NCBI RefSeq assembly: GCF_008838325.1
Contig: NZ_CP042829.1
Location: 1,116,001 to 1,180,000 of the forward strand
Direction: 5' to 3'
Origin: Tepidiforma bonchosmolovskayae
GTDB lineage: Bacteria > Chloroflexota > Dehalococcoidia > Tepidiformales > Tepidiformaceae
DNA length: 64,000 nucleotides
In this document: in pieces, positions 50,052 to 55,072 of the stretch
How positions within the stretch are numbered: position 1 is the stretch's first letter
Layout of the letters: each line of letters begins with the position of its first letter
The notes under the pieces: generated by a model
The model's input: the letters and a program-made list of their open reading frames with translations, nothing else
Told to the model about the DNA's origin: nothing
Database searches by the model: none
Made by a program: the position numbers and the translations under genes

Positions 50052-50846
50052 ATGCCTGATTGCCTGGTCGAACGGGACGGTCCCGTGATGGTCGTCACCT
50101 TCAACCGCCCGGAGCGGATGAACTCGATGGGCGGGACGCTGCTCGCCGAGTTCCTCGCCGCGCTCGAAGAAGGGCGCCGGGACGACCGGGTGAAAGCGTT
50201 CGTCGTGACCGGCGCCGGGCGGGCCTGGTGCGCCGGGGCCGACCTGCAGGCGATCGGCGCGGCGGGCGCGGACGAGCACGGGCGCCGGTTCGCGGCGGTC
50301 GACGACATCGGCGATGTGGGGCGGGTGGTGCTCGCGCTCCACCACTGCGACAAGCCGCTGATTGCGGCGGTGAACGGGGTGGCGGTGGGCGGGGGCTTCG
50401 GCCTCTGCTCGGCGTTCGATATCCGGATTGCGAGCGAGGAGGCGCGGTTCGCGACGGTGTTCATCAAGCGGGCGCTGGCGCCGGACTGCGGGCTTTCGTA
50501 CTTCCTGCCGCGGCTGGTTGGTCCGGAGCGGGCGGCCGAGCTGTTCTACTCGGGCCGGATGATCGATGCGCGGGAGGCGCTGGCGCTGGGGATTGTGTCG
50601 AAGGTGGTGCCGGCGGAGGAGCTCCTGCCGGCGGCCCTGGCGGCGGCGCGGGAGTATGCGGCGATGCCGCCCTCGGCGATGACGTACACGCGGCGGGCGA
50701 TCCGGCGTTCGCTGGACGGCGTATCGCTGGCGGACCAGCTGGCGTTTGAGTGGGCGCAGCAGAAGGCGTGCCTTGGGAGCCCGGAGTTCCGGGAGGGGGT
50801 GCAGGCGTTCCTGGAGAAGCGGGAGCCGGATTACTCGAAGTTCTGA
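50052..50846 (+). CDS. enoyl-CoA hydratase/isomerase family protein
   Basis: The 264-residue crotonase-fold enzyme acts on acyl-CoA thioesters. Features are VVTFNRPERMNSMGGTLL, the first oxyanion-hole strand GAGRAWCAGADLQAI, GGFGLCSAFDIRIASEEARF, and the C-terminal PEFREGVQAFLEKREPDYSKF typical of the family. The ATG follows aaagga. The last 150 nt of this gene recur as a direct-repeat copy about 2.9 kb downstream. The precise reaction (beta-oxidation hydratase, isomerase or other) is not fixed by sequence. Confidence 0.9.
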   Translation: MPDCLVERDGPVMVVTFNRPERMNSMGGTLLAEFLAALEEGRRDDRVKAFVVTGAGRAWCAGADLQAIGAAGADEHGRRFAAVDDIGDVGRVVLALHHCDKPLIAAVNGVAVGGGFGLCSAFDIRIASEEARFATVFIKRALAPDCGLSYFLPRLVGPERAAELFYSGRMIDAREALALGIVSKVVPAEELLPAALAAAREYAAMPPSAMTYTRRAIRRSLDGVSLADQLAFEWAQQKACLGSPEFREGVQAFLEKREPDYSKF

Positions 50847-50887
50847 GGGGAGGGGGGCGCTGCGGGCGGTTAGCTGAGGGCCCAGCC
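50693..50887. repeat. 195-bp direct repeat, left copy
   Basis: This segment holds the 3' end of the enoyl-CoA hydratase gene, its stop codon and 41 nt beyond. It recurs at 53636-53830 with 7 mismatches (about 96% identity). The last part (ttagctgagggcccagcc) corresponds on the minus strand to the last codons and stop of the DUF4010 gene, although that gene is 2.9 kb away. Confidence 0.95.
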
Positions 50888-50914
50888 TGCCCGGCGCACG
50901 GTGCGCCGGGCAGG
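50886..50914. terminator. terminator hairpin of mgtA
   Basis: A 13-bp perfect stem around cctgcccggcgca / tgcgccgggcagg with a 3-nt loop lies between the convergent enoyl-CoA hydratase and mgtA genes. It begins exactly at the inner edge of the left 195-bp repeat. Confidence 0.7.
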
Positions 50915-50921
50915 GCGGCGG

Positions 50922-53504
50922 TCAGGCGGCGGGGGTGGGAGCCGGGGGCGCGGGAGCGGGCGCAGGCGGGGGCGCGCCGGCCTGCGCGAAGACGATGCGC
51001 TTGGCGAGTTCGACGAGCGCCAGGTAGGTGACCACCATCCCCGAGAGTGCGAGGAGGAACCCGGCCGGCAGGGGCTCGAAGTTCAGCAGGCCCGCTGCCG
51101 GCGAATAGGGGATGAACGCCGCGAGGGCGACGCAGGCCAGGGTCGTCGCGAGCAGCGGCAGCGAGGGCCGGCTCCGCCAGAACGGGACCCGATGGGTCCG
51201 GAGCACGAAGATGACGAGCGTCTGCGTGCAAAGCGATTCGACGAACCAGCCGGACTGGAAGCGCGATTCGCCGGCATCGAACACCCTGAGCATCAGGGCG
51301 AAGGTCAGGAAGTCGAAGAGGGAGCTGGCGGGGCCGAAGACAACCATGGCCCGGCTGATGGTGCGCAGGTCCCAGTGGGCAGGCCGGCGGGTGAGCTCCT
51401 CGTCGACGGCATCGGTCGGGATGGTCAGCTCGGAGACGTCGTAGAGGAAGTTGTTCAGCAGGATCTGGGTGGGGCGCATCGGCAGGAAGCTGAGGAAGAG
51501 GGAGGCGCCCGCGGCGCTGAACATGTTGCCGAAGTTCGAGCTCGTGGCCATGAGGATGTACTTCACGGTGTTGGCGAAGGTGCGGCGGCCTTCGAGGACG
51601 CCGTCGGCGAGCACGCCGAGGTCTTTCTCGAGCAGGACGACATCGGCGGCGGCCTTGGCGACGTCGGTGGCGGTATCGACGGAGATGCCGATATCGGCCT
51701 GGCGGATGGCCGGGGCGTCGTTGACGCCGTCGCCGAGGAAGCCGACGTCGCGCCCGCCGGCCTGCGCGGCCTGGACCAGCAGCTTCTTCTGCTCGGGGCT
51801 GACGCGGGCGAAGACGGTCGTGCGGGCGACGGCTTCGCGGAGTTCGCCCGGGCTGAGCCCCTCGAGGTCGGCCCCGGTGAGCAGGCCGCGGACGGTGATG
51901 CCGACCCGTTCGCAAACGTGGCGGGCGACGGCCGGATGGTCGCCGGTGAGGATTTTGACCTCGATGCCGAGGCCGGCGAGCCGTTCGACAGCGGCCTTCG
52001 CTTCGGGCCGGGGCGGGTCGCTGAAGCCGAGGAAGCCGACGAGGCGGAGCTCTCCGGCGGCCTGCGCGGCGAGTTCGCGGCCATCGTCGGGGCGGATGGC
52101 GACGGCGATGACACGAAGGCCGTCATCGGCCAGGCGGGCGAGAGCCGCGGCGGCGGCAGCCTGCCACTCCTCGCCCCAGCCGGGGGCAGCCGTACACCGT
52201 GCGAGCAGCTCCTCGGCGGCGCCTTTGACGACGACCCACCGTTCGCCGGACGGGGATTCGACGGCCACGGCGGCGTAGCGGAGCTGGTAGGAGAAGGGGA
52301 ACTCATCGCGCAGGGTCCAGCCGGCGCGCGCGGCCGCCGCCCGCTGGATGCGCTCGTCGGCGGCGAGGACGGCATCGAGGGCGTTGCCGGACGTTTCGTG
52401 GATGCCGGCGAGCAGCCAGCTGGCCGTCCATCCGAGGAGCGTATCTTCGGCGCCGGGCGGGCAGCCGAGGGCTTCGAGGACGATGGAGCCTTCGGTGAGG
52501 GTGCCGGTTTTATCGGAAAAGAGGACCTCGAGGTTGCCGAGGTCTTCGATGGCGACGAGGCGGCGGACGATGACTTTCCGCCGGGCCAGCCGCCGGCCGC
52601 CGGTGGCGAGGCTGACCGTGACGATTGCGGGGAGGAGCTGCGGAGTGAGCCCGACGGCGATGGCGAGGGCGAAGAGGAGCGATTCGAGGAGGCCGCGGCC
52701 GAGGACGGCGTTGGCGGCGAGGATGAACGCCGTGAGCGCCGCAGTGACGTTGACGAGGAGGAGGGAGAAGCGGCGGAGGCCGCGTTCGAATTCGGTGGGT
52801 CGGCCGGCTGCGAGCAGGTCCGCGGAGACGGCCCCGACCATCGTCCGCGGACCGGTGGCCACGACCACGGCGCGCCCGCGTCCGCTGCGCACCACCGTGC
52901 CGGAGAGGAGCATGGTGGCGAGGCCGGGTTCGCCGCCGGCTTCGGCGCGCTTCTCGGCGGGGAGCGACTCGCCGGTCGCGATCGACTCATCGACGGCGAG
53001 GTCGTTCGTTTCGAGGACGCGGGCGTCGGCGGCGATGATGTCGCCGACTTCGACGACGAGGATGTCGCCGGGGACCAGCGATTCGGCGTCGACGCGCTGG
53101 ATTTCGCCGTCGCGGAGGACGCGGGCCGTGCGCGTGAGCCGCGCTTCGAGCATGCGGGCCGAGCGGTCGGCGCGGAATTCGTCGACGAAGCCGAGGACGA
53201 CGGAGAGGAGGAGGATGCCGACGATGATGGCCGCATCGAGGCGCTGGCCGACGACGAAGGAGACGGAGACGGCGGCGAGGAGGAGGCCGAGGAGGGGGTT
53301 CTTGAGCTGGCGAAGGAAGATGGCGAGCGCGGGGTGGCCGCCGCGCGGCAGGGAGTTGGGGCCGTGGACGGCGAGGCGGCGTGCGGCTTCGGCGCTGGAG
53401 AGGCCGCCGGGGCCGGTCCCGAGACGTTCGAGCACGTCGGCGGCGTCGCGCACGGCCCATTCGGCGAGCGCGGGCGCCGGGCCGCGCCGGCGCGGCTGGT
53501 TCAT
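50922..53504 (-). CDS. mgtA: magnesium-translocating P-type ATPase (class IIIB)
   Basis: The 860-residue P-type ATPase belongs to the Mg2+ importer class. It has the N-terminal cation-ATPase domain, the actuator motif TGES, the phosphorylation motif DKTGTLTEG with D331, KGAAEELLARC, TGDHPAVA, and the hinge GDGVNDAPAIRQADIGISVD, plus about ten membrane segments. Neighbours are an MgtC/DUF4010-like protein and CorA, which supports Mg2+ as the ion. The ATG lacks a Shine-Dalgarno. It overlaps (ATGA) the stop of a 19-codon upstream ORF and probably relies on coupled translation. The whole unit is bracketed by a 195-bp direct repeat. Confidence 0.88.
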   Translation of the reverse strand: MNQPRRRGPAPALAEWAVRDAADVLERLGTGPGGLSSAEAARRLAVHGPNSLPRGGHPALAIFLRQLKNPLLGLLLAAVSVSFVVGQRLDAAIIVGILLLSVVLGFVDEFRADRSARMLEARLTRTARVLRDGEIQRVDAESLVPGDILVVEVGDIIAADARVLETNDLAVDESIATGESLPAEKRAEAGGEPGLATMLLSGTVVRSGRGRAVVVATGPRTMVGAVSADLLAAGRPTEFERGLRRFSLLLVNVTAALTAFILAANAVLGRGLLESLLFALAIAVGLTPQLLPAIVTVSLATGGRRLARRKVIVRRLVAIEDLGNLEVLFSDKTGTLTEGSIVLEALGCPPGAEDTLLGWTASWLLAGIHETSGNALDAVLAADERIQRAAAARAGWTLRDEFPFSYQLRYAAVAVESPSGERWVVVKGAAEELLARCTAAPGWGEEWQAAAAAALARLADDGLRVIAVAIRPDDGRELAAQAAGELRLVGFLGFSDPPRPEAKAAVERLAGLGIEVKILTGDHPAVARHVCERVGITVRGLLTGADLEGLSPGELREAVARTTVFARVSPEQKKLLVQAAQAGGRDVGFLGDGVNDAPAIRQADIGISVDTATDVAKAAADVVLLEKDLGVLADGVLEGRRTFANTVKYILMATSSNFGNMFSAAGASLFLSFLPMRPTQILLNNFLYDVSELTIPTDAVDEELTRRPAHWDLRTISRAMVVFGPASSLFDFLTFALMLRVFDAGESRFQSGWFVESLCTQTLVIFVLRTHRVPFWRSRPSLPLLATTLACVALAAFIPYSPAAGLLNFEPLPAGFLLALSGMVVTYLALVELAKRIVFAQAGAPPPAPAPAPPAPTPAA

Positions 53505-53560
53505 CGCGGGGCGGCCGGCGCGGGCCGGGTGCGGCGCCGGGCCGGGGAAGCGCTGTTCAT
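53501..53560 (-). CDS. candidate Pro/Arg-rich leader peptide of mgtA
   Basis: A 19-codon ORF (MNSASPARRRTRPAPAAPR) starts 8 nt after a TACCCT -10 box. Its TGA overlaps the mgtA ATG as ATGA. In Salmonella and E. coli, mgtA is preceded by the Pro-rich MgtL leader, which senses Mg2+ and proline. The resemblance in position and composition is seen here, but any frame in this GC-rich DNA tends to be Pro/Arg-rich, so homology is not claimed. The absence of any ribosome-binding site for mgtA itself favours coupled translation from this ORF. Confidence 0.5.
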   Translation of the reverse strand: MNSASPARRRTRPAPAAPR

Positions 53561-53568
53561 GCCGTCCA

Positions 53569-53574
53569 AGGGTA
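53569..53574 (-). promoter_or_regulatory. -10 box (TACCCT) of the mgtA unit
   Basis: TACCCT on the minus strand lies 8 nt before the leader-ORF ATG. A TTGACA is present further upstream but only 9 nt from this box, so it cannot act as its -35. Confidence 0.45.
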
Positions 53575-53635
53575 GCGGGTTGCTGTCAACGGATGGGAGG
53601 GGGCCGTGCGTGCCCGTGGAGGCCGCCCGGCCGCT

Positions 53636-53789
53636 GCGGGCGATCCGGCGGTCGCTGGACGGCGTATCGCTGGCGGACCAGCTGGCGTTTGAGTGGGCGC
53701 AGCAGAAGGCGTGCCGTGGGAGCCCGGAGTTCCGGGAGGGGGTGCAGGCATTCCTGGAGAAGCGGGAGCCGGATTCCTCGAAGTTCTGA
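53636..53789 (+). pseudogene. 3' fragment of an enoyl-CoA hydratase gene
   Basis: The last 51 codons of the enoyl-CoA hydratase, including the stop, are repeated here without any 5' part. Differences from the intact copy are few (for example AYSKF-type end reading DSSKF instead of DYSKF). There is no plausible start or promoter in frame. The 53505-53812 gap otherwise holds only the mgtA leader region. Confidence 0.9.
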
Positions 53790-53830
53790 GGGGAGGGGGC
53801 CGCTGGGGGCGGTTAGGTGAGGGCCCAGCC
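53636..53830. repeat. 195-bp direct repeat, right copy
   Basis: This is the partner of 50693-50887, offset by 2943 bp. It covers the enoyl-CoA hydratase 3' fragment and runs through the stop and last five codons of the DUF4010 gene, so it preserves what looks like the ancestral convergent junction of the two genes. Confidence 0.95.
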
Positions 53831-55072
53831 GGCCCACGCGAGGGCGGCGGTGGCGATGACGCCGGGCCAGACTTCGAGGGCGAAGCGGCGCCCGCCGGAA
53901 GCGGCCGCGAGGACCATCTTCGTGACCGAGTTGGTGGTGAAGGCGGCGAGGATCGGCACCACAGCGTCGGCGGGCTCGATGCGGCCGCCGGCGGCGAGCC
54001 CCGCGACGGCGATTGCCGCGGCGTGGGTATCGGCGAAACCCGCCACCGCGGCCGAGAGGAGGACGCCGCGGTTGCCGAGCCAGTCGCCGAGGACGGCGGA
54101 GACGAGAAGGACAGCCGTGACGGTGGCGGCAAAGAGGACCGCGGTCTTCAGGTCGAAGGCGCGCCCGCCGGGGTGGTGGGCGTCGGCAGCCGCATCGCGC
54201 AGGGCGCGCAGGGCGAAGACGGCGCCGTAGCCGACGGCAGCAACACCGGCGAACGCCATCGCGGGCCAGAGCCGGGCGAGGGTCCGGCTATCGGTGGCGC
54301 CGACGATGATGACCATCTGGACGACGGTCGCGACGGTGGAGAGCACGGCGGCAGCCACGGCGGGGGTGCGCAGGGCAGGGGTTTCGCGGGCGCGGGCGCC
54401 CATGGCGGCGATGGTGGCGGAGCTCGAGACGAAGCCGGCGGCGAGCCCGGAGAGGGGAAGGCCGACCCGTGCCCCGAGGAGCCGGACCGCGGCGTAGCCC
54501 GCGCCGCCGATCGCCATCACGATGACGACGAGCCGCCAGATGGCGAACGGGTTGAAGACGCCGTACGGCCCGATCCGCTCGTTGGGCGCGAGCGGGAGGA
54601 TGACGAGCGCGGCCCCGGCGAAGAGGAGGGCGTCGTGCACCTCCTGCTCGGTGAGTGCGCGGGAGACGAGGCGGTGGAGCTGCTCCCGGGCAGCGAGGAG
54701 GATGGTGACCACGACGGCGATGCCGGCGGCAAGCTGCGGCTCCTGCTGGGCGAGGGCGCCGAGCAGGAAGGCGACAACGACGGCCACCTCGGTGGTGAGG
54801 CCGGGGTCGGTGCGGTCGCCGAGGACGTAGGCGGCCAGGACGGCAAGGGCAACGAAGCCGAGCGCGACGGCGAGGACGAGCCCGCCGCCGACGGCCATGG
54901 CGATGCCGCCGGCAAGGGCGACGAGGGCGAAGGTGCGGATGCCGGCGGCGCCGCGGGCGGGCCCTTCGCCTTTGCGGCGCTCCCGTTCGGCGCCGAGGAG
55001 GAGGCCGATGCCGAGCGCGACGGCGAGCCGCACGCCCTGCTCATCGAGCCGGATGCCTGCGACGTCCATCAC
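53813..55072 (-). CDS. MgtC/DUF4010-family membrane protein
   Basis: The 419-residue protein has an MgtC/SapB-like N-terminus (RLAVALGIGLLLGAERERRKGEG, GIRTFALVALAGGIA) and a DUF4010 C-terminal half (GLPLSGLAAGFVSSSATIAAMG, AGFADTHAAAIAVAGLAA, FTTNSVTKMVLAA). About 11-12 membrane helices are predicted. MgtC proteins are tied to Mg2+ limitation and modulate membrane energetics. It lies 19 nt after corA on the same strand. The start is GTG 55072 or ATG 55069, with no strong Shine-Dalgarno. Its 3' end is inside the right 195-bp repeat. Confidence 0.85.
   Translation of the reverse strand: MMDVAGIRLDEQGVRLAVALGIGLLLGAERERRKGEGPARGAAGIRTFALVALAGGIAMAVGGGLVLAVALGFVALAVLAAYVLGDRTDPGLTTEVAVVVAFLLGALAQQEPQLAAGIAVVVTILLAAREQLHRLVSRALTEQEVHDALLFAGAALVILPLAPNERIGPYGVFNPFAIWRLVVIVMAIGGAGYAAVRLLGARVGLPLSGLAAGFVSSSATIAAMGARARETPALRTPAVAAAVLSTVATVVQMVIIVGATDSRTLARLWPAMAFAGVAAVGYGAVFALRALRDAAADAHHPGGRAFDLKTAVLFAATVTAVLLVSAVLGDWLGNRGVLLSAAVAGFADTHAAAIAVAGLAAGGRIEPADAVVPILAAFTTNSVTKMVLAAASGGRRFALEVWPGVIATAALAWAGWALT

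Follow-up and report, generated by a model that had tools for sequence, protein, structure and literature searches.

A candidate leaderless small open reading frame coupled to the start of an mgtA-type gene in Tepidiforma bonchosmolovskayae

Introduction

In the 64,000-nucleotide stretch of Tepidiforma bonchosmolovskayae DNA analysed here (the window), an upstream open reading frame (uORF) of 19 codons runs directly into the start codon of a gene for an Mg2+-translocating P-type ATPase, mgtA. An earlier note had read this uORF as a possible MgtL-like leader peptide that, if real, would form a translational Mg2+/proline switch, and the question that the locus raises is whether the uORF is such a sensor, whether it brings ribosomes to mgtA irrespective of its peptide, or whether it is a chance ORF. 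In the enterobacterial mgtA leader, the acidic EPDP motif close to the MgtL N-terminus leads to ribosome drop-off in low Mg2+, whereby the leader RNA is rearranged and Rho termination is prevented (PMC11282234), while the Salmonella peptide MgtQ needs the acidic residues Asp2 and Glu5 as well as alternative stem-loops (PMC8092293). Of 220 leaderless small ORFs in mycobacteria, 23 are linked to the following gene through RTGA, a number above random expectation, and the linkage of these coupled small ORFs is sometimes conserved when the peptide is not (PMC4633059).

Results

The locus contains the following features, given in window coordinates.

53569..53574, minus strand: candidate -10 box TACCCT of a leaderless promoter, 8 nt 5' of the uORF ATG
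53561..53597, minus strand: conserved promoter-proximal block CCCATCCGTTGACAGCAACCCGCTACCCTTGGACGGC, from the alignment with a second genome of the genus (G004, locus L012), with an identical 18-nt core CAACCCGCTACCCTTGGA
53501..53560, minus strand: 19-codon uORF encoding MNSASPARRRTRPAPAAPR followed by the stop, with its ATG at 53560; the G004 counterpart encodes MTSAPPARRGTRPAPAAPR and likewise ends in a stop
53501..53504, minus strand: ATGA coupling tetramer, in which the uORF stop codon (TGA) overlaps the mgtA start codon, read from the sequence and kept in G004
50922..53504, minus strand: mgtA, Mg2+-translocating P-type ATPase of 860 aa, without a Shine-Dalgarno (SD) sequence (TIGR01524; duplex energy)

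Each element that the earlier note had described (TACCCT, the 8-nt spacing, the 19-codon ORF and the TGA/ATG overlap as ATGA) was found in the sequence, and its statement that a uORF with well-placed signals is coupled directly to an mgtA-type gene agrees with the ATGA overlap seen there. The identity of the gene as a P-type Mg2+ ATPase was also upheld, the product being a true MgtA-type ATPase that scores 739.5 bits against the TIGR01524 equivalog, above the cut-off of 610.75. The mgtA frame stays open for 27 codons 5' of the ATG at 53504 (887 vs 860 aa), and this extension holds no ATG, GTG or TTG; the first possible start is 53504, as the note had implied in stating that mgtA has neither an SD nor an in-frame upstream start. 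Of the neighbours of mgtA, one encodes a DUF4010 protein that carries an MgtC domain, and another a protein of the CorA family. Just 3' of the mgtA stop lies a GC-rich inverted repeat, TGCCCGGCGCACCGTGCGCCGGGCA (minus strand, 50878-50910), which is absent from that position in G004.

The duplex energy with the anti-SD sequence was -1.7 kcal/mol upstream of mgtA and -3.0 upstream of the uORF, which also has no SD. The median was -7.9 for genes that overlap an upstream gene, a strong SD being usual among them, compared with -3.3 for random DNA and -2.4 kcal/mol for leaderless genes, which are without SD. Outside the leaderless genes, a start without an SD, such as that of mgtA, is unusual here.

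Genome statistics were drawn from a 464-kb sample, consisting of the window and 400 kb of the same genome (L117-L136), in which a simple purpose-made codon-usage caller gave 408 genes, and TANNNT was counted upstream of their starts. Among 294 ATG starts, TANNNT stood 6, 7 or 8 nt 5' of the ATG in 25, 14 and 10 cases, respectively (49/294 in total), against a background of about 2 per spacing elsewhere. GTG starts peaked similarly, and about 14% of the called ATG/GTG starts in the sample have TANNNT 6-8 nt upstream. At 6-8 nt from an ATG, TANNNT genuinely marks leaderless starts in this genome; it corresponds to the signature reported for leaderless genes of high-GC bacteria, a TANNNT some 12 bp 5' of the start (PMC3160421). 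The TANNNT-N8-ATG of the uORF fits the signature of this genome, with a C in TACCCT where the true boxes favour A or G. In intergenic DNA, the spacings 6-8 gave a combined 15 box-ATG pairs without a called gene, where a single control spacing gave about 3, and several of the 15 resemble missed genes. Box plus ATG in non-gene intergenic DNA is near background frequency, so the box alone is no proof of a start, and the start signal on its own is only suggestive. It is strengthened because the 136 nt preceding mgtA hold no TANNNT other than TACCCT, in the window as in G004, and because it is conserved in this second genome, which carries other DNA beyond about 135 nt. A sigma-70 promoter scan gave no match. 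A TTGACA was rejected as a -35 element, as it lies just 9 nt from the -10 box and reads TTTACC in G004, and the leaderless promoters of this genome show no visible -35 consensus.

Of 394 gene starts, roughly a dozen have an ATG uORF with an ATGA- or TGATG-type overlap, and mgtA is the only one of these loci at which the overlapping uORF is combined with TANNNT at 6-8 nt. By arithmetic from the sample rates, we estimate about one such coincidence of box and coupled uORF per genome by chance, and the arrangement therefore needs conservation to be credible. This estimate favours the alternative that the uORF is a chance ORF whose translation would have no effect on mgtA, an alternative that we hold to be unlikely but well worth weighing. 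The mgtA mRNA would then have a 5' UTR of about 56 nt, or a longer one by read-through from the corA-DUF4010 genes of the window, ribosomes would start with low efficiency at the mgtA ATG itself or reach it in some unrecognised way, and the conserved nucleotides would reflect promoter constraint or recent exchange. The lack of an SD at mgtA, unusual here unless a gene is leaderless, argues against it.

At the E-value used, mgtA is patchily distributed, with two carriers among six genomes of the genus and 11 among 393 of the class. The protein of the second genome, G004, is 92% identical to that of the window, and the cassette in common corresponds to 50874-53640 of the window, so that mgtA travels with its own upstream region; the DNA of G004 diverges beyond the first ~135 nt upstream of mgtA. 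Within this cassette, G004 has an identical TACCCT at the same 8-nt distance, an indel-free uORF frame and the ATGA. The earlier note had named loss of the ATG or frame in close relatives as telling against the uORF, and both are intact in the only close relative with mgtA. The upstream alignment that it proposed thus came out in its favour as regards ATG and frame, but not as regards the substitutions, which show no synonymous bias.

Between the window and G004, the uORF is identical at 57 of 60 nt (95%), whereas the fourfold sites of mgtA are 81% identical and the intergenic region upstream of corA 83%; the uORF exceeds both the fourfold-site level (p 0.002) and this single intergenic comparison (p 0.005), which, together with the intact frame and ATGA in both genomes, argues against a chance ORF. 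Points in favour of a chance ORF are that two genomes only carry the arrangement, that the first 40 mgtA codons are about as conserved as the uORF, and that all three differences (N2T, S5P and R10G) are replacements, with 0 synonymous changes and 0 of 14 fourfold sites changed. Three replacements out of three have a probability of 0.04 at the replacement fraction of mgtA and of about 0.42 without constraint. The constraint is not specific to the uORF, because the early mgtA codons share it. The nucleotide stretch of the uORF appears to be either constrained or recently exchanged, not in the manner of a selected peptide, and across the two genomes compared the uORF does not look selected at the peptide level. 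The Arg run of the peptide is broken in G004; all four Pro are kept and one is gained there, in a comparison of two sequences with 0 synonymous changes.

Further copies of the uORF in the genus were also considered, but the short matches examined in G001, G003 and G022 were spanned by long open frames and were rejected as probable GC-rich chance matches. A 204-bp direct repeat (96%) flanks mgtA at 50689-50892 and 53632-53835, and the 3' ends of two genes, that for enoyl-CoA hydratase (50052-50846) and the DUF4010 gene, are both found in each copy. This repeat looks like the scar of an mgtA insertion between the enoyl-CoA hydratase and DUF4010 genes. In G004, a copy of the DUF4010 tail also follows mgtA, but other DNA (~5.6 kb) lies upstream. 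The locus has recombined, yet the uORF travels with the cassette, and the insertion was set aside as an explanation of the uORF.

Beyond this pair of genomes, 89 other homologous ATPase loci were compared, of which the nearest are 64-67% identical and most about 50%. None of the 89 has an ATGA-type uORF with a leaderless box, so that relatives at ~67% identity or below are without the arrangement. Overlapping uORFs without a box occur in roughly a fifth of the 89 loci, a proportion inflated by uncertain starts, and most of their peptides are unlike that of the window. Two mgtA-type loci of Streptomyces (L052 and L056) have similar short uORFs, MRQPSGSDFGGRSW and MHHPSSAGFGGRSW, which form a GTGA overlap with a candidate GTG start and have no leaderless box.

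Five of the 89 loci (L016, L018, L038, L039 and L053) carry a leaderless box directly at the candidate ATPase start and have no uORF. These loci lend some weight to the alternative that the uORF belongs to an N-terminal extension of MgtA, either as the indel-split remnant of an ancestral leaderless mgtA start or by way of a -1 frameshift near the uORF end. The N-terminal tails of the family are too variable to show homology, however, and the same frame relation in two genomes argues against a sequencing error, though not against an old event; we consider this explanation improbable.

The peptide itself contains 4 Pro and 5 Arg (9 of 19), a content reached by 11% of random open 18-codon windows of the genome, and high Pro/Arg content is expected at 70% GC; the earlier note had itself called composition weak evidence at this GC content. 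Pro, Ala and Arg together make up 14 of 18 residues, which 1.8% of random windows reach, but this excess is compositional and does not point to Mg2+. Neither peptide (window or G004) contains D or E or an EPDP-like motif, and Pro-Pro is absent from the window copy. No leader RNA lies between the uORF and mgtA, as the stop overlaps the start. Rfam covariance models, including the M-box, gave no match at E up to 5 across 53200-53900 on both strands, and an M-box or other known RNA element was rejected on this ground. A conserved RNA structure was rejected as well, since neither the window leader nor that of G004 folds more stably than its shuffles, and the two folds are unlike.

These results bear on the leader-peptide explanation, in which stalling or drop-off at Pro/Arg codons would sense Mg2+ or charged tRNA and switch mgtA. 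The position before an mgtA gene, the 4 Pro and 5 Arg in 19 codons, the Pro+Ala+Arg content and the known enterobacterial precedents speak for it. It is nevertheless very improbable, given the missing acidic residues and EPDP-like motif, the lack of any RNA between uORF and mgtA that could serve as an attenuator, a Pro+Arg content ordinary at this GC, the broken Arg run and the lack of a synonymous bias among the changes in G004, the lack of an Rfam match or of folds better than shuffles, and the absence of the arrangement from homologues outside the genus pair. With direct coupling, moreover, drop-off in low Mg2+ would be expected to lower, not raise, mgtA translation. The designation MgtL-like in the earlier note is not supported by the peptide, which has no acidic residue and, in the window copy, no Pro-Pro, or by the RNA, which folds ordinarily and leaves no gap between the uORF and mgtA, and its Mg2+/proline switch found no support, as 11% of random windows match the Pro+Arg content and all three changes are replacements.

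Discussion

We think it probable that the uORF is a leaderless coupled small ORF that acts as a sequence-independent ribosome loader for mgtA. RNA polymerase would start on the uORF ATG or no more than a base or two away from it, by way of TACCCT, and produce a leaderless mRNA, ribosomes would initiate at its 5'-terminal AUG and translate the 19 codons, and termination at the TGA within ATGA would lead to reinitiation at the overlapping SD-less mgtA AUG in this GC-rich RNA. The uORF would serve as a loading platform in which the frame and the end point matter and the peptide sequence is largely immaterial. Any change in leaderless initiation or reinitiation may shift mgtA output, and the data support no specific signal. 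The sequence and its architecture, the genome-wide leaderless signature, the SD-less mgtA, the preservation of the arrangement in one relative, the identity of the uORF above that of fourfold sites and of the intergenic comparison, and the mycobacterial precedent all favour the loader, and changes that are all replacements are expected under it, because only the architecture is kept. Against it are the restriction of the arrangement to two genomes, the similar conservation of early mgtA codons, the near-background frequency of intergenic boxes before non-gene ATGs, the C in TACCCT and the 0 of 89 homologous loci. A real weakness is that reinitiation, though it can take place in the absence of an SD, is often inefficient (PMC6728339).

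Among known systems, the mycobacterial RTGA class (Shell et al. 2015, PMC4633059) resembles the locus in its -10 box by the ATG, its short unannotated first ORF (5-50 aa), its RTGA overlap with the next gene and a linkage that is kept while the peptide drifts. The uORF matches a 5-50 aa ORF with RTGA overlap in having 19 codons and ATGA at 53504-53501, as it does in G004; it differs in belonging to another lineage and in preceding an SD-less mgtA-type ATPase gene. Termination-reinitiation at overlapping genes shares the use of ATGA as a coupling device, but the known pairs usually consist of two annotated genes and usually have an SD before the second start (PMC6728339), unlike here. The enterobacterial MgtL (PMC11282234, PMC3641672) is likewise a short Pro/Arg-containing ORF upstream of an mgtA-type gene. 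MgtL requires EPDP together with a Rho terminator and a leader RNA that can adopt alternative structures, whereas the uORF has no acidic residue and no following leader and is joined directly by ATGA. A closer analogue than MgtL is MgtQ (8 aa, Salmonella mgtC-mgtB; PMC8092293), likewise a short ORF between an MgtC-domain gene and a Mg2+ P-type ATPase gene; its translation promotes that of its ATPase gene, as is proposed for the uORF. Unlike the uORF, MgtQ is preceded by an SD, carries acidic residues at positions 2 and 5, sits in a 219-nt spacer and unmasks the mgtB ribosome-binding site; the upstream gene here encodes a DUF4010 protein and is not adjacent in G004.

A Mg2+ response might conceivably arise from the architecture and not from the peptide, if initiation at the 5'-terminal AUG requires intact 70S ribosomes, which are stable only with sufficient Mg2+; the leaderless uORF would then be an obligatory SD-free gate that ties mgtA output to the Mg2+-dependent state of the ribosome, a proposal that we regard as highly improbable.

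The locus warns against taking short Pro/Arg-rich peptides for MgtL-like sensors in DNA of 70% GC. If the uORF is translated, the coupling of leaderless small ORFs known from mycobacteria would have an example in another lineage, in front of a Mg2+ pump gene, and the locus would provide a clean natural case of Shine-Dalgarno-free reinitiation.
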